From Acidobacteriota bacterium (lineage in GTDB: Bacteria > Acidobacteriota > Blastocatellia > Pyrinomonadales > Pyrinomonadaceae): DNA of 64,000 nt. Position numbers and translations under genes: made by a program. The notes below the pieces were generated by a model. It searched no databases. It was not told the origin of the DNA and was given only the letters and a program-made list of their open reading frames with translations. Shown piece after piece: positions 1,306 through 10,351 of this stretch (its first letter is position 1; each line of letters begins with the position of its first letter). The stretch lies in the NCBI GenBank assembly GCA_019639195.1, contig JAHBSI010000003.1, positions 62,001 through 126,000 of the forward strand, in the 5' to 3' direction.

Positions 1306-3831
1306 CTAGTTCACATACGCACTCGGTGCGGGAATGTCGCCCGCAAGGCCGAACGGTATCACAGAGAAGCCTGCACTCGAACCGAGTATGTAGAACAATC
1401 CCTGTGCGTCAGGACGATAGACCGCAAGGTCGGCCTTGCCGTCGCCGTCATAGTCGCCTGCCGCGGGAATGTCGGTCGAGATGCCGAACGGTGCTCCATA
1501 CGCCGTCTCGTTCTCGCTTCTTAGGACATACCAGAATCCGGTCGATGGCCTCCAGACCGCGAGGTCCGTCTTGCCGTCGCCCGTGTAGTCCGCCGGAACG
1601 ACCTTGTCGCCTGCTGCTCCGAACTGTGCCGCGTAGAACGAACCGTTCGATGAGTTGAACCGATACCAGACGCCTGTCGATGGCCTGTAAACGGCAATAT
1701 CTGCCTTGCCGTCTCCGTCAAAGTCTGCGGTGGTCGGCTTGTCGCCTGCAAGCCCGAACTGCACGGCGATAAAGCCTTGCGTCGAACGCTGTATGTAGAA
1801 CGTGCCCTGTGCATCAGGCCGATACACGGCAAGGTCGGCCTTGCCGTCCCCATCGAAATCTCCCGGCGAAGGAATGTCGGTCGATATCCCGAAAGGAGCG
1901 ACCGTTAGCGTCAGGTCCTCGCTTCTGAGAATGAACCACGTTCCGGTCGATGGCCGATAGATCGCAACATCCGTCTTGCCGTCGCCCGTATAGTCGGCAG
2001 GCACGAGTTTGTCGCCCGCCGCACCGAACTGATACGCCGTAAAGCCCGCGGTCGATCTCTGCAGATACCAGACGTTGTTCGACGGCCGATAAACACTCGC
2101 ATCCGTCTTACCATCTCCATCAAAATCAAACATCGTCGCACCCGTCGGCGTCGATGAATTGCCGATCGTGAAGTTTGCCGAAGATGCTCCCATCGGGTCA
2201 ATAAATCCTGCTTCCCGGACGCGAATCCGTGCGGTCGATGTCGGCGTATTCGGTACCGTCCAGCTTCTTGACCCGGAATTTGCAACGTCGGTCGCGATCG
2301 CGGTCGGATAGGTCGCACCGCCATCAGTCGAGAGTTCGATCGTGACATTGCGGTCAAATCCGGACGCGTTCGTCCAGGTGATATTGACGTTCGACCCCAT
2401 AGCGACAGAACCGCTTGCGGGCGCAACATTCGTGATCGCGTCACGCACCTGATCCGAATTGCTGTCGCGATACCAGCCGATATCGCGCATTTCCTGGCGT
2501 GTGAGATCAAGCGTAAGCGGTATCCCGGTGTTAATGTTCGGCTCCATCAACAGATTCGGACTGCAAGCCGTATTGAAATGCGAGATCGACGATCCGCCCT
2601 GAAATGTCGATGGCGTGTAGAGCTGCACTCGGCCGCTCGAATCGTCACAGGCAGTCAGAAAACTTGACGCGATCCTTACATTCGGCCCGTCAAATACGAC
2701 GTTGTTGTTGTTCGTCGCAGATGTTCGACGTTCGATCTCAGTCATTTCCGACCAACGCTTGCCGGTCGTCGTATCGACCATAAAGCGAAGGTACGCATCC
2801 GGAAATCCCGATGGCATCTCGCCGGTCGATCCGTTCACAAAGCTCGAAAACCCGAGCCCGTGTCCCATTTCATGCAATAGAACGACTAACAGATTGATTC
2901 GGCCCGACGGTGTCGAATTGTTCAGGCCGTAATAGAATCGTGTTCCGGCACCCAGACAGCCGTTGTCAACGTCAGTGTTGAATTGAGCAAATATCTCGGG
3001 GTTTGTAAGGTTGAGAGGCGAGCCGGAGAGTTTGTTGGCAAGAGCAACGTGATACCACGTGCCCGCGACCGGTGCGCCGGAGAAATCTCGAATTCGGCTC
3101 GTCGCACCCGCAGAGCCGAGGACACCGCCGCTCGAGCTGCAGGGCGTCAGCGAATTGAACTGAGAGTTGACCTCGATCGGAACCGTCGTATCAAGAAAAG
3201 CCCCCCAGATGCCCGCTGCAAAATTGAATAGATTCAAACGCTGCTGTCCGCGTGTGGTCCCATCATTGCCGCCTTCCGGCGCCGCAGCGGTCGGGTCGTT
3301 AAATCCTTCACCGGCACCGTCGCCATTGACGATCGTGATCGTTGCCGAGTTCGGATGCATCGCCCGTCTCTGAGCTGCTTCGGCGATCAGCTCCTTGTAA
3401 AAAACGAGTTCAGCAGGCGACATTCCGTGTCGAGCCGCCTCATCTGCGATCTGTGTCCGCTCCGGATAATGCGACGTGAGCTTCGCACCGGTCAAAAGAT
3501 CCCGGCCGAAGAAGTTGTCTGCCTCGGATAGATCGGTCACGCACGCCGCAACCGGTTCACCGTCGCTTCCAAGCCGCCCGAGCATCACATTCTGAAACGT
3601 CCTGCCCATATCGACCTCGACCGCCCCGTCAGGCAATGTACGTTCGATGCTGCGGGCGTCGGTGCGGTCGGTAAGGTCACCGATCAAGCGTCCAAGGTCG
3701 CGATCGCTATCTTGAGCCTGGGGCTGGTTACGTGTCTGCGCTTTTGCCAGGGACCAGCGGCCCGTTCCGACAAAAGAAAGCACTCCGAGGATCAAAGCCA
3801 ATACCGTCGAGGAAAGAATTACTTTTTTCAT
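1306..3831 (-). CDS. Secreted zinc metalloprotease with FG-GAP/VCBS repeats
   Basis: 841 aa from an ATG at 3831, chosen because it begins a typical signal peptide (MKKVILSSTVLALILGVLSF). An in-frame start 50 codons upstream would put a hydrophilic tail before the signal. A zincin motif HEMGHGLGF lies at about residues 320-328 (HExxH plus a third ligand region), followed by a conserved-looking DIGW segment that closes the catalytic domain near residue 465. An Ig-like beta domain comes next, then six 45-residue DxDGDGKxD calcium-binding FG-GAP/VCBS repeats ending at the C-terminus. Expected to be an extracellular or surface peptidase; the substrate is unknown. Divergent from the subtilase gene. 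It belongs to the metzincin-like group, but I cannot assign a MEROPS family. Confidence 0.85.
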   Translation of the reverse strand: MKKVILSSTVLALILGVLSFVGTGRWSLAKAQTRNQPQAQDSDRDLGRLIGDLTDRTDARSIERTLPDGAVEVDMGRTFQNVMLGRLGSDGEPVAACVTDLSEADNFFGRDLLTGAKLTSHYPERTQIADEAARHGMSPAELVFYKELIAEAAQRRAMHPNSATITIVNGDGAGEGFNDPTAAAPEGGNDGTTRGQQRLNLFNFAAGIWGAFLDTTVPIEVNSQFNSLTPCSSSGGVLGSAGATSRIRDFSGAPVAGTWYHVALANKLSGSPLNLTNPEIFAQFNTDVDNGCLGAGTRFYYGLNNSTPSGRINLLVVLLHEMGHGLGFSSFVNGSTGEMPSGFPDAYLRFMVDTTTGKRWSEMTEIERRTSATNNNNVVFDGPNVRIASSFLTACDDSSGRVQLYTPSTFQGGSSISHFNTACSPNLLMEPNINTGIPLTLDLTRQEMRDIGWYRDSNSDQVRDAITNVAPASGSVAMGSNVNITWTNASGFDRNVTIELSTDGGATYPTAIATDVANSGSRSWTVPNTPTSTARIRVREAGFIDPMGASSANFTIGNSSTPTGATMFDFDGDGKTDASVYRPSNNVWYLQRSTAGFTAYQFGAAGDKLVPADYTGDGKTDVAIYRPSTGTWFILRSEDLTLTVAPFGISTDIPSPGDFDGDGKADLAVYRPDAQGTFYIQRSTQGFIAVQFGLAGDKPTTADFDGDGKADIAVYRPSTGVWYRFNSSNGSFYAAQFGAAGDKVVPADYTGDGKTDLAVWRPSTGFWYVLRSENETAYGAPFGISTDIPAAGDYDGDGKADLAVYRPDAQGLFYILGSSAGFSVIPFGLAGDIPAPSAYVN
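1324..2127 (-). repeat. Six FG-GAP repeats arranged as a duplicated three-unit block
   Basis: Six units of about 135 bp encode DxDGDGKxD..YRP..FG...D-P. Units 1 and 4 share AAGDK-VPA, units 2 and 5 share APFGISTDIP, and units 3 and 6 share YRPDAQG..FGLAGD. The array is therefore A-B-C followed by A'-B'-C', with the block boundary near 1725. Confidence 0.9.
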
Positions 3832-4195
3832 GATTGATACAACCGGGTAATGTGGGTGTCGTGCGAACCACGCGGAAATTTCGATTCTCTCACAACCGAA
3901 GACAATTTGAAACAAGAATTTCCCCGACAGACCCTGCGAACGCGATCGGGCGAAACCCAAATTGGCGCCGCCTTGGAGCACGGTCGCGGAGAGCGTTCAG
4001 AATGTCGTTCAGGGTGACCGAATTTGCACGTCAGGCTGACCGATTTTCGGTCTCGTGACAAGTACCCATCTTCTCTAACCACTTCTACTACAACAATTAG
4101 CTTGTGGCACACCCCTTGATTATAGATCGGGCAGAGGGAAGTGCGCAGACAGTGCACTCCATTTTGGGCGGTCGGCCCGGAAAGAGGATCTAAAC
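3832..4195. promoter_or_regulatory. Divergent intergenic region between the two secreted protease genes
   Basis: No gene is supported in these 364 bp. They must hold the promoters of both proteases. On the plus strand TATAGA near 4121-4126 is a plausible -10 element without a good -35. An imperfect dyad AGTGCGC-AGACA-GTGCACT lies at 4140-4158, just downstream of it, where an operator could sit. A ribosome site AAAGAGGA precedes the subtilase ATG. Confidence 0.4.
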
Positions 4196-6757
4196 ATGAA
4201 ACACAGAAAATTGCCGAAAGCGATGCAGAAAGCACTAGCGATAGTGTTTACCGCGTCCTTTCTATTTTCGAACACACTTGTGTTTGGAATTGGCAGGGCG
4301 AGCAATGCTCGTACTGCAAGTTCTGAAACGGTTGTCGCGAAATACACCACCGATCTTACGCAGCTTGGCCGTGAAGGAAGACTGCGTCAGAACCTAAGCC
4401 TCGAGAGCGAAGTTATTCGTCTCACGAACGCGTTAGCTGAAGGGGGTCTTCGCCAACCGGTTCTAGTCACTGACCTGCGGGAAACACGAAACACGATTGT
4501 TGAGCAGCTTGCCATTAGGATCGCGAACGGCGATGTGCCTCCGAGCCTTGCCGAGCGTGCCATTGTCAGGCTTGACGTGGATTCTGTGTACTCCAACGCC
4601 GCAAACAGTGATGATTTTGAGGCTCTGGTTTCATCCATCTTGGATGACGCGGTCTCCGATCACGGCAAAAAGATCCTCTTCATAGATGACCTCGGAAACG
4701 TTCTTCGTAACAAGAATGTTGCCGTAAAACTCTTGAGTTGTGTCGCTGAAGGAAAGATCGCGGTAATAGGCGGCAGCGCAGCCGCAGATTACCGCGATCG
4801 TATCGACGCGGATCAGACTCTCGCGGATGCTTTCGCAGCGTTCGAGATCAAGAGCGTTCAGGCGACGTCCGACGATGATGCTATCGGGGGCGCAAGCTCA
4901 TACCGCGGCGGCAATCTTTCGCCCGACCTTCGCGATATGATCGCGAGCGACCCGAGCGGTAAGAAGCGCGTTGACGTCATCGTTCAGGCCCGCAATGCGG
5001 ACAATCCGGCCCTTCGCCAGCTTATCGCGACCGGTGAAGCACACATCACGAACCGCATCGGAGCGACCAACACTTTGGTCGTGAATATGCCGCTTTCAAC
5101 GGTGCAGGCCTTGTCGCAAAGCGATCTCGCGAACTATATTTCACCGGATCGCCCGACGGCTACGACCGGCCATGTTGAGGACACCACCGGCCTTTCGCTA
5201 ATGCGAAGCCAGCCGGCCCTTAACGGCCGCAGTGCATATACGCTTGATGGTACAGGTGTTGGGATCGCAGTGCTCGACTCCGGTATTTATTCTTCACACA
5301 ACGGATTCAAGAACAGCAACGGCACATCGCGGATCGTTGCGAATGTAAATTTCACGAATGCCGATATCACTGACACAAGTGATGGATACGGGCACGGAAC
5401 TCACGTCGCGGGCCTCGCGGCAGGGAATTCGAATGTCTCGAGCGGTGCCTATCGCGGCATTGCCCCCAACGCGAACATTATCAGCGTAAAGGTGCTGAAC
5501 AACATGGGTCAGGGACAACAGTCCTGGCTTTTGAACGGCCTGAACTGGGTGCTGAATAACCGTGGGACCTACAACATCCGCGTGGTCAATCTTAGCCTCG
5601 GTGCAACTGCGATCGACACATACACGAATGATCCGGTTTGTTTGAAGGTAAAAGAGCTCGTTGACGCAGGCATCGTCGTCATTGCTGCCGCCGGAAACCT
5701 CGGAAAGGATTCAATCGGCAACAAGCGCTATGGCCAGATCCACTCGCCCGGCAATAGCCCCTACGCGATCACCATCGGTGCCAGCAACACTATGGGAACT
5801 GCCGCTCACGGTGACGATAGCATTGCAAGTTTTAGCTCACGCGGACCAACGCGAAGTTTTTACACAACATCGACCGGCACAAAGGTATTCGACAACATCA
5901 TCAAGCCGGACCTCGTCGCTCCCGGAAATAAGGTGGTTTCATACAAATCCCCTTACAACTACATGGCGGTCGAGAATCCACAGCTTTCGCTTGGGGTGAC
6001 GAATGGAACCGATTCGATGATGTATATGAGCGGCACGTCGATGTCGTCTCCGGTGGTTGCCGGTGCGGCGGCTCTCCTGCTGCAAGTAAACCCGAATCTT
6101 ACGCCTCAAATGGTGAAGATGCTGCTCCAGTACACGGCGCAGCCGATCGCAGGCGTTAACACATTCGAGCAGGGAGCGGGCGAACTGAATATAGACGGCG
6201 CGGTGCGACTAGCAAGGTCGCTTCGTACGGATGTCGATTTTCGACTGCTCTCGGTTGGCGATTCCATGGTCCCGTCCGGTTGGTCTATGCCGACGGCGTC
6301 AAGCACGATCGGTGGTTCGACAGTAGGATGGTCGCAACTCGTCACGGGCAATTTTACGAGTATATCGGGCACGCAGCTCGTCTCAAGTTTCCAGCGGGTC
6401 TATCGTCGTTCAAACACAATAGGTGACGGCGTAACGTTCGGAAGCGGCAATTTCTCATTGAGCTCGACTTACTTTTCGACCGGCCTTTCCATAAACCGGA
6501 ACATCAACGTCAGTAACGGTGCACCGCTCGGCGCAGGCTCGCTGTATCTAATCTACGGCGTGCTCGTTGGTGACGGCGTCATCGTTGGTGATGGCGTGAT
6601 CGTCGGCGATGGCGTCCTTGTAAGTGACGGTGTCCTTGTCGGTGACGGCGTGCTGGTGGGAGATGGCGTACTTATCGGCGATGGCGTTTTGATCGGTGAC
6701 GGTGTTCTTGTTGGAGACAGTGCTCTCCAAGGCGATAACACGCCCGCTATGCAGTAA
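4196..6757 (+). CDS. Secreted subtilisin-like protease with Clp-like N-terminal domain and hexapeptide repeats
   Basis: 853 aa. Residues 1-37 form a signal peptide. Residues 49-221 run collinear with the first AAA+ domain of ClpA/ClpB: KYTTDLTQLGREGRL, IVEQLAIRIANGDVPPSL, a Walker-B-like ILFIDDL at 160-166 and DYRDRIDAD. The Walker A loop is replaced by TDLRETRNT, so ATP binding is not expected. Residues 240-320 look like an I9-type propeptide. The S8 catalytic domain has Asp361 (VLDSG), His400 (GHGTHVAG), Asn501 (AAGN) and Ser615 (GTSMSSP), all intact. A beta-rich linker precedes ten six-residue repeats (790-849). Probably an active extracellular endopeptidase. A GNAT gene follows after 12 nt. 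Confidence 0.88.
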   Translation: MKHRKLPKAMQKALAIVFTASFLFSNTLVFGIGRASNARTASSETVVAKYTTDLTQLGREGRLRQNLSLESEVIRLTNALAEGGLRQPVLVTDLRETRNTIVEQLAIRIANGDVPPSLAERAIVRLDVDSVYSNAANSDDFEALVSSILDDAVSDHGKKILFIDDLGNVLRNKNVAVKLLSCVAEGKIAVIGGSAAADYRDRIDADQTLADAFAAFEIKSVQATSDDDAIGGASSYRGGNLSPDLRDMIASDPSGKKRVDVIVQARNADNPALRQLIATGEAHITNRIGATNTLVVNMPLSTVQALSQSDLANYISPDRPTATTGHVEDTTGLSLMRSQPALNGRSAYTLDGTGVGIAVLDSGIYSSHNGFKNSNGTSRIVANVNFTNADITDTSDGYGHGTHVAGLAAGNSNVSSGAYRGIAPNANIISVKVLNNMGQGQQSWLLNGLNWVLNNRGTYNIRVVNLSLGATAIDTYTNDPVCLKVKELVDAGIVVIAAAGNLGKDSIGNKRYGQIHSPGNSPYAITIGASNTMGTAAHGDDSIASFSSRGPTRSFYTTSTGTKVFDNIIKPDLVAPGNKVVSYKSPYNYMAVENPQLSLGVTNGTDSMMYMSGTSMSSPVVAGAAALLLQVNPNLTPQMVKMLLQYTAQPIAGVNTFEQGAGELNIDGAVRLARSLRTDVDFRLLSVGDSMVPSGWSMPTASSTIGGSTVGWSQLVTGNFTSISGTQLVSSFQRVYRRSNTIGDGVTFGSGNFSLSSTYFSTGLSINRNINVSNGAPLGAGSLYLIYGVLVGDGVIVGDGVIVGDGVLVSDGVLVGDGVLVGDGVLIGDGVLIGDGVLVGDSALQGDNTPAMQ
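6563..6742 (+). repeat. Ten tandem 18-bp units encoding [LI]-[VI]-G-D-G-V hexapeptides
   Basis: Units start every 18 bp from 6563. In protein they read LVGDGV, IVGDGV twice, LVSDGV, LVGDGV twice, LIGDGV twice, then decay to LVGDSA and LQGDNT. Third codon positions vary freely while the protein is almost invariant, so the array is old and held by selection on the protein. The periodicity resembles left-handed beta-helix hexapeptide repeats. Confidence 0.9.
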
Positions 6758-6769
6758 GGAGGCATTAGA

Positions 6770-7675
6770 ATGTTGAATACAGCAATGAAAATGCAACGCC
6801 GAACTGCACAGAATGCGATCGAACCGCTCTTCGCACTTTCGCCAGCAGCACCGGCATTCCGCCTGAAGCAATCGGACGAAGCCGAGGTCTTAAGATTCCT
6901 CGCTATCGAACCAGTTCAGACCGTCGTGATGTCGAGTTACATCGCAGACAATGGCATAGAAAGCGACCTGAACCGAGGTGCTTTCTACGGGCATCGTGCA
7001 TCTGATGGAAGTCTGGACGGCGTCGCGTTGATCGGCCACAGCACTCTTGTCGAAGCTCGATCAGAAGAAGCGATGACGGCCTTTGCGGTCGCAGCTCAGA
7101 ACCCGGAAGTGCCGATCCACCTAATTATGTCGAATGGCGATGATGCTCAGAAGTTCTTCGACAGAATGACAAATTGGGTGGGCACACCGCGGCTGCAATG
7201 CGTCGAAGATCGTTTCGAAGCAGCGTTTCCTTTCGCTGTCCAGTCAAGCGAGTATGCGATCAGGAATGCGGATATGAGCCAGCTCGAAGCAGTTGCTAAG
7301 GCTCAGGCAGAACTGGCATTCATCGAGTGCGGTGTTGACCCGACGATCCGCGACCGTGAAGGTTTCTTGAAGCGGGTCGCACGCCGCATCGAGCAGGGTC
7401 GTATTTTCTCGGTCTTCGAAGGTGGAAAGCTTATCTTCAAAGCGGACATCATCGCCGAGACGAACGAGACGATCTACCTGGAAGGCATCTACGTTGACCC
7501 CAAATACCGTGGAAAGGGAATCGGCTCACGTTGCCTTGCGGCTCTGACAGCACACCTTCTTTCTCGCGTGCCGAATATCTGTCTGCTGAGCAACGTGGAC
7601 TTCACCAACGCTCACCGCAGCTATCATAAAGCAGGCTTTCGGCGTACGGGCCAGTGTGTGACGCTCTTTGTCTAG
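6770..7675 (+). CDS. GNAT family N-acetyltransferase
   Basis: 301 aa. The C-terminal half holds the acetyl-CoA-binding motif V-D-P-K-Y-R-G-K-G-I-G-S (about 243-254) with the preceding beta-4 strand (IYLEGIYV) and a final strand region HRSYHKAGF, all typical of the GNAT fold. The N-terminal 150 residues look like a second, degenerate acyltransferase-like module (ALIGHSTLVEA). The acceptor substrate is not readable. An excellent ribosome site (TAAGGAGG) overlaps the subtilase stop and only 12 nt separate the genes, so the two are almost certainly co-transcribed. It has no signal peptide and should be cytoplasmic, unlike its exported neighbour. Confidence 0.8.
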   Translation: MLNTAMKMQRRTAQNAIEPLFALSPAAPAFRLKQSDEAEVLRFLAIEPVQTVVMSSYIADNGIESDLNRGAFYGHRASDGSLDGVALIGHSTLVEARSEEAMTAFAVAAQNPEVPIHLIMSNGDDAQKFFDRMTNWVGTPRLQCVEDRFEAAFPFAVQSSEYAIRNADMSQLEAVAKAQAELAFIECGVDPTIRDREGFLKRVARRIEQGRIFSVFEGGKLIFKADIIAETNETIYLEGIYVDPKYRGKGIGSRCLAALTAHLLSRVPNICLLSNVDFTNAHRSYHKAGFRRTGQCVTLFV

Positions 7676-7686
7676 AACGCGTATGT

Positions 7687-7728
7687 GACGGCATGCCAGT
7701 GCCTGTCCATTGGCTGCCGTCGGCGTTT
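7687..7728 (+). terminator. Probable terminator after the GNAT gene
   Basis: GACGGCA at 7687-7693 pairs with TGCCGTC at 7715-7721, and an inner GCCA/TGGC pair extends the stem. GGCG and four T follow. The T-run is short, so termination may be partial. Confidence 0.55.
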
Positions 7729-7855
7729 TCTCCCACATTCTTAATTTCGTTCATGAGTGCCGGGCCTGCCGGACTTTTCGATCAGGAAGCCGTTCTTCAC
7801 CTCCCCCAAGTGGCTTCCGATACGTGTAGCAAGAGCGATTCTTGCCAATAACAAA

Positions 7856-10351
7856 ATGGAACGTCAACGAATAGTAAAACCATTGGAGCTCACACTGTGG
7901 GTGCTAGGGCTCGCGGCCTGCGGTTGGGCGATCTACGGCTTCCCATACGAGAAGATCGATGTGCCCATGACAGCGTTCTTCTTCCTCACGATCGCGATCG
8001 GTCCGCGAGTCACCATCAAGGTCCCGCGGTTCAAGTCGTATATCTCCGCGTCGGAGACCTTCATTTTTCTCGCATTGCTGCTCTACGGCGGTGAAGCTGC
8101 CATCTTGCTCGCAGCTGCAGAAGCATTTGCAACATCCTGGACCTATTGCAAGAAGAAGAGAACGGTTTTCGTCAATACAGCTACTATCGCCTTCTCAACA
8201 TCCTGTGCGGTCGTTGTGCTAAAGGTTGCGGGCGTTTACGAGCATTTCCACAGCTATAATGCTCATCCGCAGGCGTTTCTGATGGCGCTCCTTCTCCTTG
8301 CGCTTGTCCAGTTTCTTGTCAATACGTCGGTCGCCTCAACGTACGGGGCTCTACGTGATGGAACTCCGATATTCGAGACCTGGCAAAGGAAATACATTTG
8401 GGCCTTTCTGACGTATATCGTAGGTGCGGCCGCATCAGGTGCCCTAGTTCAACTGGCCGACACGATCGGAATTGGTATCGTCCTGATCGCGTTCCCCGTT
8501 TGTTTCTTTGTTTTCTACTCATATCGGATGTATCTGCAAAACGTAGAGATATCAATGGAGCAGGCCGAACAGGCAAAGAAATACGCAAGCCTTCTCGAAT
8601 CTCAGTCTGGCAAGCTCCGCGAATCAGAAGAGCGATTCAGGAGCGCCTTCAACTACGCGCCGATCGGCATCGGCCTGGTCTCAGGTTCGGGCGAGTGGTT
8701 GAAGACGAATTTTGCGATGACCGAGATCCTCGGTTACAGCGAAGACGAATTTCGCCGAATGAACTTTCAGGACGTCGTTATGAGAGAAGATCTTGGAGCG
8801 ACACTTGTTAAGGTTCACGAGATAATGTCCGGGCGTTCCGCGACGGCGCAGATGGAACAACGATATCGCCACAAAGACGGCTACACGGTGTGGACATCGT
8901 GGAGCGTCTCTTCGGCACAGAGTGCCGACCAGGGGATGCCGAACCTTATCTTCCAGCTCCAGGACATCACGGAGAAGAAGCTTGCCGAGGCGCGCCTTCG
9001 TCATGAGGCGACGCACGACGCATTGACGGGTCTCGCAAATCGGGCCCACTTTATGAAGCGGCTTGATGTCGCGCTGGGCCGCGTGCATTCTAGCGGTAGC
9101 AAGGTCAGTATCTTATTCATCGATCTTGACCGCTTTAAGGTCGTAAATGACAGTCTGGGCCATCTTGTAGGCGACGAACTCCTAAGGTGTATCGCCTCGC
9201 GGCTTCGCGATTGTATGCGGCCGTCCGACCTGGTTGCGAGACTCGGCGGGGACGAATTTACGATCCTTGTCGAGGGCAGCTATGACGATCAGGAAGTTAC
9301 CAGGATCGCCGAACGCATCCAGGATAAATTCAGCAGGCCGTTTGATCTTTTCGGGCACGAAGTTTACAGCTCCGCAAGCATTGGGATCCTCCACGCATCG
9401 AGCCAGCACGCGACGCCCGAGGATCTGATGCGTGACGCCGACACCGCGATGTATCAGGCAAAACGTGCCGGAAAGGCACGCCATGAGGTCTTTGACGAGG
9501 GCATGCACACGGAGGCAAAGGAAACCTTGCAGCTTGAGACCGATCTTCGCCGGGCCATTGAGCAGAACGAACTTTCGCTCGCCTATCAGCCGATCTTTCG
9601 GCTTGCAACAAATGAACTTGAAGGCGTCGAGGCCCTGGTTCGCTGGGATCACCCGACGCTTGGACTCATTTCTCCCACAAAATTCGTCCAACTCGCAGAA
9701 GAGATCGGCCTCATCGATAAGCTGTGCGATCAGGTGCTGGCAAAATCGTGTCGCGACCTTCGTTCACTGCATAATGAATCACCCTCGCTTGCCGATCTAA
9801 CTTTAAGCGTTAATCTCTCGTCGAAACAGTTCGGTCAGAGTTCGATCCACAACATTTGTTCGATCCTGGATGAGACGGCATTTCCGCCGCATCTCCTCAA
9901 GCTCGAGATAACGGAATCAGTTTTCTTTGAGCATACCGAACGAGCGGTCGCGATGCTCAACACCCTTCGAGATCTTGGTATCGACATCAATGTCGATGAT
10001 TTTGGAACGGGTTATTCAAATCTCAGCTATCTGACAAAGCTTCCGATCTCGACGCTAAAGGTAGATCGCTCCTTTGTTTCGATGATAAAAGATGAGACCG
10101 GAAGCGAGGTCGTTCATGCCATTGTCACTCTGGCGCGGAATCTGGGGCTGCGGGTGGTTGCGGAAGGTATCGAGACCCAGGAGCAGCTCAACTATTTACG
10201 GGATCTCCGCTGCGAGAGCGGTCAGGGCTATTATCTGTCGATGCCGATGCCGTTTGACGATCTTGTCGAATTGGCCGCCGCGGGGACGAAAAAATATGAC
10301 CTACTTCGGCCGAATGCAGCAGTGGCCGGTGTTGCGGCTATCGTTCATTAG
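7856..10351 (+). CDS. Membrane PAS-GGDEF-EAL protein (c-di-GMP turnover)
   Basis: 831 aa from the ATG at 7856, chosen because the MASE-like membrane region begins directly after it; an in-frame ATG at 7757 would add 33 hydrophilic residues. About eight hydrophobic helices occupy residues 15-225. A PAS domain lies at about 256-378, a GGDEF domain with intact GGDEF at 464-468, and an EAL domain with EALVRW at 592. The EAL domain also has DDFGTGYSNL and VVAEGIET, the usual metal and substrate residues. Both diguanylate cyclase and phosphodiesterase activities are possible; the balance cannot be told from sequence. Likely sets local c-di-GMP in response to a membrane or PAS signal. Converges with ispH, 22 nt away. 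Confidence 0.9.
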   Translation: MERQRIVKPLELTLWVLGLAACGWAIYGFPYEKIDVPMTAFFFLTIAIGPRVTIKVPRFKSYISASETFIFLALLLYGGEAAILLAAAEAFATSWTYCKKKRTVFVNTATIAFSTSCAVVVLKVAGVYEHFHSYNAHPQAFLMALLLLALVQFLVNTSVASTYGALRDGTPIFETWQRKYIWAFLTYIVGAAASGALVQLADTIGIGIVLIAFPVCFFVFYSYRMYLQNVEISMEQAEQAKKYASLLESQSGKLRESEERFRSAFNYAPIGIGLVSGSGEWLKTNFAMTEILGYSEDEFRRMNFQDVVMREDLGATLVKVHEIMSGRSATAQMEQRYRHKDGYTVWTSWSVSSAQSADQGMPNLIFQLQDITEKKLAEARLRHEATHDALTGLANRAHFMKRLDVALGRVHSSGSKVSILFIDLDRFKVVNDSLGHLVGDELLRCIASRLRDCMRPSDLVARLGGDEFTILVEGSYDDQEVTRIAERIQDKFSRPFDLFGHEVYSSASIGILHASSQHATPEDLMRDADTAMYQAKRAGKARHEVFDEGMHTEAKETLQLETDLRRAIEQNELSLAYQPIFRLATNELEGVEALVRWDHPTLGLISPTKFVQLAEEIGLIDKLCDQVLAKSCRDLRSLHNESPSLADLTLSVNLSSKQFGQSSIHNICSILDETAFPPHLLKLEITESVFFEHTERAVAMLNTLRDLGIDINVDDFGTGYSNLSYLTKLPISTLKVDRSFVSMIKDETGSEVVHAIVTLARNLGLRVVAEGIETQEQLNYLRDLRCESGQGYYLSMPMPFDDLVELAAAGTKKYDLLRPNAAVAGVAAIVH

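Follow-up and report, generated by a model that had tools for sequence, protein, structure and literature searches.

A dead ClpB AAA+ domain within the precursor of an exported S8 protease of Pyrinomonadaceae

The protease gene and its surroundings

The window analyzed here, by computational methods throughout, is a stretch of 64,000 nucleotides from a genome of the family Pyrinomonadaceae (Acidobacteriota). It encodes, on its forward strand, an S8 protease precursor that carries the remains of the first AAA+ domain (D1) of ClpB between its signal peptide and its propeptide. The gene has the following parts:

4196..6757, + strand: ORF of 853 amino acids, precursor of an exported S8 protease that includes a dead ClpB D1
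4196..4309, + strand: signal peptide, Sec-type, residues 1–38, likely cut after ASNA (assigned by eye; no twin arginine)
4328..4858, + strand: dead ClpB D1, large AAA+ subdomain, residues 45–221
4859..4921, + strand: linker, acidic, variable and of low confidence in the structural model
4922..5230, + strand: inhibitor-I9-like propeptide, predicted β-α-β-β-α-β in the model, approximately residues 243–345
5249..6175, + strand: S8 catalytic domain, residues 352–660 (Pfam)
5276, 5393, 5696 and 6038, + strand: S8 residues D361, H400, N501 and S615, respectively
6545..6730, + strand: C-terminal GVLVGD hexapeptide repeats, found in homologs with and without D1

Signal peptides were assessed with composition as the sole criterion, and by this measure the N-terminus is charged and then hydrophobic in 82 of 84 homologs. 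The S8 domain matches Pfam PF00082 with an E-value of 1.6e-50, and both the catalytic triad (D361/H400/S615) and the oxyanion residue N501 are invariant across 53 aligned sequences. With its triad intact, the protease looks active, as had been predicted from the DNA sequence at the outset. The accompanying prediction of an I9-like propeptide holds for the predicted fold only: the Pfam I9 profile finds no match at E-values up to 10, while predicted secondary structure places a ferredoxin-like β-α-β-β-α-β order immediately ahead of the S8 domain. When the full-length model was searched against PDB folds, the top matches were pro-forms of subtilisin (3afg and 3whi). The pTM of this model (0.64) lends no confidence to the position of D1 relative to the protease. 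The GVLVGD tail is left-handed β-helix-like and is coded by DNA repeats. In kind, the protease is an ordinary S8A enzyme, and D1 is what has been added to it.

The original prediction had placed a dead Clp-type AAA+ domain at 4340–4858, which corresponds exactly to codons 49–221. All of the motifs by which it was recognized are present in the translation, namely KYTTDLT (residues 49–55), VLVTDLRETRNTIVEQLAIR (89–108), NGDVPPSL (111–118), ILFIDDL (160–166) and ADYRDRID (197–204).

Divergent from the protease gene lies a reverse-strand gene (1306–3981) for an exported-looking protein with a zinc-metalloprotease-like motif (HEMGHGLGF) and FG-GAP repeats, and this neighborhood is kept in close relatives. 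On the other side, genes for a GNAT acetyltransferase and a PAS-GGDEF-EAL protein (6770–10351) follow the protease gene at almost every D1-bearing locus whose flanks are long. As a D1-specific signal the GNAT linkage fails, since GNAT also follows some homologs lacking D1; a related PAS-GGDEF-EAL-type gene lies downstream of one such homolog, L167. In genus g29 (G118, G113; L106, L129), the D1-bearing protease gene adjoins a ClpC-type gene with an intact P-loop. The window's own 3.2-Mb genome encodes five intact Hsp100-type proteins (L002–L006), comprising one ClpB, apparent ClpC and ClpA types and two others; L002 and L006 are about 3 kb apart.

A decayed ClpB domain of single origin

Both sequence and structure searches connect residues 45–221 with ClpB. 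In PDB, phmmer matched ClpB NBD1 (2p65, E = 2.8e-21; Mtb ClpB, 7e-20; 1jbk, 1.9e-18), and in NCBIfam the ClpB family TIGR03346 (E = 2.8e-21, residues 35–216) came ahead of ClpV (7.5e-18) and ClpA (2.3e-16). Conversely, a profile built from the dead domains picks up genuine ClpB with an E-value of about 1e-59. No Pfam AAA family scored above threshold in the 853-residue ORF, so ordinary Pfam annotation would miss D1. The AlphaFold2 model of D1, obtained with family members as the sole input, has a pLDDT of 94.3 and a pTM of 0.89. Foldseek ranked ClpB NBD1 first for this model (1jbk, E = 9.8e-14, TM = 0.85), and its VIA-align superposition on 4hse gave a Z-score of 25.9 and 1.9 Å over 178 residues. 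The AAA+ identity put forward in the original prediction thus holds by predicted structure and by sequence alike. As judged from sequence comparison and the predicted fold, homology of residues 45–221 to the first AAA+ domain of ClpB is confirmed, and chance resemblance is ruled out by the sequence E-value (1e-21) and the predicted-fold Z-score (26). The homology stops at about residue 221, at the end of the large subdomain, where the linker and propeptide follow. The ClpB N-domain, small AAA+ subdomain, middle domain and D2 are absent from the protease precursor.

The functional sites of the ATPase were located by aligning 70 members to the five intact Clps that the window's own genome encodes:

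4469..4495, + strand: site of the lost Walker A loop, TDLRETRNT, residues 92–100
4592..4618, + strand: site of the lost pore loop 1, SNAANSDDF versus AGAKYRGEF, residues 133–141
4673..4690, + strand: remnant of the Walker B strand, ILFIDD, residues 160–165
4826..4831, + strand: site of the lost arginine pair, DA versus RR of LERRF, residues 211–212

The predicted replacement of the Walker A loop by TDLRETRNT is borne out by this alignment, in which the segment lies opposite GEPGVGKTA of ClpB. An intact Walker A motif, GxxxxGK[ST], occurs in none of the 84 members. The catalytic Glu of Walker B is Asp in the window, and Glu is found in 27 of the 70 aligned members. Mostly small or polar residues take the place of the KYRG pore loop; this aromatic loop and the arginine pair are replaced in the window and mostly lost among the aligned members. 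In ClpB, a mutant of the Walker A Lys is unable to bind nucleotide, and the trans-acting arginine pair couples nucleotide binding to oligomerization and is needed for the hexamer and for activity (PMC4239642). D1 is thus related to ClpB by descent, yet from its sequence would not count as an AAA+ ATPase.

The P-loop site displays a decay series that runs through GETGVGKA, GETPYGKA, GEAGPDVA, SECGAENQ and ADPGFGRS to TDLRETRNT. Early-looking members, with up to 53% identity to ClpB, have half-decayed P-loops (GETGVGKA, GETPYGKA), and intermediates such as GETGVGKA evidently record, in their sequences, the decay of the P-loop. Identity to ClpB descends to about 25–30% while the fold and reading frame are kept. 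In L204, a D1 remnant in the same position is almost unrecognizable and represents the most eroded end of the series.

What, then, is conserved in D1? The nearly invariant positions are hydrophobic and of core type, which indicates that the fold, not an active site, is being conserved; no conserved surface patch was identified among these positions. D1 is the fastest-evolving of the three domains, outpacing the propeptide and, by a wide margin, the S8 domain: relatives of the genus share 39–51% identity in D1, 57–68% in the propeptide and 68–77% in the S8 domain. The dN/dS of D1 is 0.15–0.42 in comparisons among the closest relatives and, since dS is itself depressed there, understates the constraint. 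D1 is under purifying selection: every ATP-dependent element has decayed, and the fold has been kept.

In genomes that were mostly metagenome-assembled, D1-bearing proteases were found only in Pyrinomonadaceae, with 84 distinct members. The predicted combination of signal peptide, dead D1 and S8 domain recurs in 75 of the 119 genomes of the family, including most of the window's genus, and its presence in dozens of independent genomes rules out an assembly chimera or artefact. In other families of the class and phylum, only ClpB was seen among the matches listed, in a phylum search that scored few candidates per genome. No viral carriage of a D1-bearing protease was found. Pyrinomonadaceae commonly encode homologs without D1, about 650 residues long and alike in propeptide, protease and tail, and such homologs are also present in other families of Blastocatellia. 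In L167 and L168, for example, the propeptide, S8 domain and repeat tail are as in the window, but the signal peptide leads directly into the propeptide, with no ClpB domain.

In a tree built from the propeptide and protease but not D1, the D1-bearing rows all group in one clade, which D1-free homologs surround. The sole D1-free row within this clade, L163, is cut by a contig end. In a tree of D1 itself, the dead domains form one clade (100/99) within ClpB, adjoining the ClpB of Pyrinomonadaceae (92/87 and 89/75). ClpB is also the best match for the D1 of nearly all members; these matches and the nesting within ClpB rule out ClpC, ClpA or other Clps as the donor. Together, the two trees point to one capture, from the lineage's own clpB. 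A single insertion, in an ancestor belonging to Pyrinomonadaceae, thus placed a clpB fragment behind the signal peptide and ahead of the I9-like propeptide in an S8 subtilase until then without such a domain. Sequence comparison, the predicted fold, both trees, the decay intermediates and the signature of purifying selection all uphold the original idea of a captured Clp fragment reused without ATP, and the evidence supports a sharper version of it, with ClpB as the donor, a single capture inside this family and only the large subdomain of D1 taken.

Possible roles of D1 as protein and as RNA

Subtilases fold with the help of an N-terminal propeptide, which also acts as their inhibitor until it is cut off at the propeptide–catalytic junction. 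The pre-protein described here would be exported via Sec, and outside the cytosol the dead D1 would fold nucleotide-free as an extra pro-domain ahead of the I9-like inhibitor and chaperone. There it may help to fold or hold the protease or to delay its activation, perhaps through contacts with the protease or with a surface. The protease would then cut itself at the propeptide–catalytic junction as other subtilases do, and D1 would leave with the propeptide. The loss of ATP binding and oligomerization would suit both an ATP-free compartment and Sec passage. A removable pro-region is favored by the position of D1 N-terminal to the propeptide, by its fast evolution and by the pro-form subtilisins matched by the full model. 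Against it count the many homologs lacking D1, which indicate that such a protease can do without the domain, the low confidence with which the full-length model places D1 against the protease, and the lack of an identified conserved surface patch. Most likely, D1 would be an ATP-free extension of the pro-region. The best explanation overall, and one that we regard as moderately probable, is a single capture from clpB, decay of the ATPase and use of D1 as an extra pro-domain that is discarded.

Alternatively, D1 might stay on the enzyme, or be freed as an exported fragment, and bind a substrate, the cell surface or a partner. There are precedents outside the cytosol for degenerate AAA+ folds that serve purely in binding, among them those of the torsin cofactors LAP1 and LULL1 (PMC5425593), and the linker is of low confidence, acidic and variable, hence a cut there is conceivable. 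However, autoprocessing normally removes everything that precedes an I9-type propeptide, no conserved surface was found, and the known Clp contact sites, the pore loop and the arginine pair, are gone. We therefore consider such a binding module unlikely.

In addition to the protein, the mRNA over the D1 coding stretch shows signs of selection in the window's close clade:

4334..4804, + strand: synonymous constraint and unusually stable mRNA folding over the D1 coding stretch, in the window's close clade
4354..4391, + strand: local hairpin with compensatory changes, kept in 18 relatives
4756..4799, + strand: hairpin formed by a near-perfect inverted repeat, GATCGCGGTAAT...ATTACCGCGATC, most of which is retained in five relatives

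The RNA tests covered six related sequences, the window and five close relatives (L131–L135). In these sequences, synonymous changes are 3–5 times rarer in codons 47 to about 203 than in the remainder of the gene, and divergence at four-fold sites is 0.05–0.25 in D1 versus 0.15–0.62 elsewhere (15 of 15 pairs). Other close pairs in the family do not have this deficit. An overlapping ORF was rejected as its cause, no alternative frame being open in all six sequences. Recombination is a less likely cause, as all pairs are reduced in similar order and amino-acid divergence is reduced much less. Relative to synonymous-codon shuffles, the folding z-score is −3.0 to −8.0 in all six D1 stretches, and mostly −1.6 to +0.2 in 18 control windows from the same genes (exceptions −2.5 and −4.0). 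We also asked whether predicted pairs are preserved: each sequence in turn supplied its predicted structure as the reference, against which the synonymous changes of the other five, and no others, were scored. Changes that keep a pair exceeded a same-codon permutation null (5/200 or better) with five of six references for D1 and in one of 12 controls. Among one-sided changes, G-U outnumbered A-C in five of six references, favoring the sense strand. A joint structure has 159 pairs with modest covariation support. The hairpin at 4354–4391 and the long-range structure need the same bases and would be mutually exclusive. An Rfam search of the D1 stretch found no known RNA family. Thus, a selected, clade-specific mRNA structure probably overlies the D1 coding sequence. 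Family-wide RNA structure is unsupported, the mean folding z-score being −1.2 for 54 members versus −0.7 for genuine Clp genes.

If real, the mRNA signal would mean that one sequence is selected at both the protein and the RNA level. In the window's clade, D1 might accordingly be dual-purpose, combining an exported, ATP-free AAA+ scaffold with a conserved, selected sense-strand mRNA structure of about 470 nt and a local hairpin of wider occurrence in the genus, which would regulate the timing of protease synthesis or export. We put this forward tentatively, as a possibility somewhat short of even. It could also be supposed that D1 is kept partly as nucleic acid, its mRNA structure tuning translation, export timing or mRNA stability while the protein is tolerated. 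The four-fold-site deficit, the shuffle z-scores, the preserved pairs and the sense-strand excess of G-U would all agree with this, but the signal is limited to the close clade and comes from six related sequences, which are few; the deficit is missing from other close pairs, the family-wide z-score is only slightly below that of real Clp genes, and retention of D1 across the family cannot be explained in this way, which leaves the idea improbable. That D1 is a functionless passenger, a harmless folded spacer tolerated by Sec, would fit its rapid divergence, the extreme erosion in L204 and the large D1-free sister group, but is hard to reconcile with its presence in most genomes of the window's genus, a fold and frame kept at such low ClpB identity, a dN/dS well under 1 and the absence of any demonstrated loss of D1 within its clade, and we hold it to be very doubtful.

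Comparison with known systems

The premise of the original prediction that Clp AAA+ domains are cytosolic and not normally exported needs a qualifier, as non-cytosolic AAA+ proteins exist: torsins are located in the ER lumen and human CLPB in the mitochondrial intermembrane space (PMC7175109, PMC9934407). In the literature searched, largely without subscription journals, we found no description of a secreted protease whose precursor contains an AAA+ remnant. D1 offers a traceable recycling of a motor domain into an exported structural part, with the donor gene, the insertion site, D1-free relatives and decay intermediates in hand, and would be a rare documented case of a motor domain reused as an exported building block. 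It would extend the known range of protease pro-regions by a module of ClpB origin, and it makes the ATP-free capabilities of the AAA+ fold testable.

With NBD1 of ClpB (Hsp104), D1 has fold and descent in common. ClpB, however, possesses the P-loop, the Walker B Glu, the arginine pair and the aromatic pore loop, whereas D1 is without all four and, unlike ClpB, forms part of an exported protease precursor. S8A subtilases with an I9-type propeptide, such as pro-subtilisin E and Tk-SP, resemble the window protease in their signal peptide, I9-like propeptide and intact triad, but the latter has an additional folded, AAA+-derived domain before the propeptide and a hexapeptide-repeat tail. The torsin cofactors LAP1 and LULL1 are, like D1, degenerate AAA+ scaffolds that lack ATP-binding motifs and are located outside the cytosol (PMC5425593). 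LAP1 and LULL1 are separate eukaryotic membrane proteins that activate a living AAA+ partner, whereas D1 is bacterial, derived from ClpB and a covalent part of a protease precursor.
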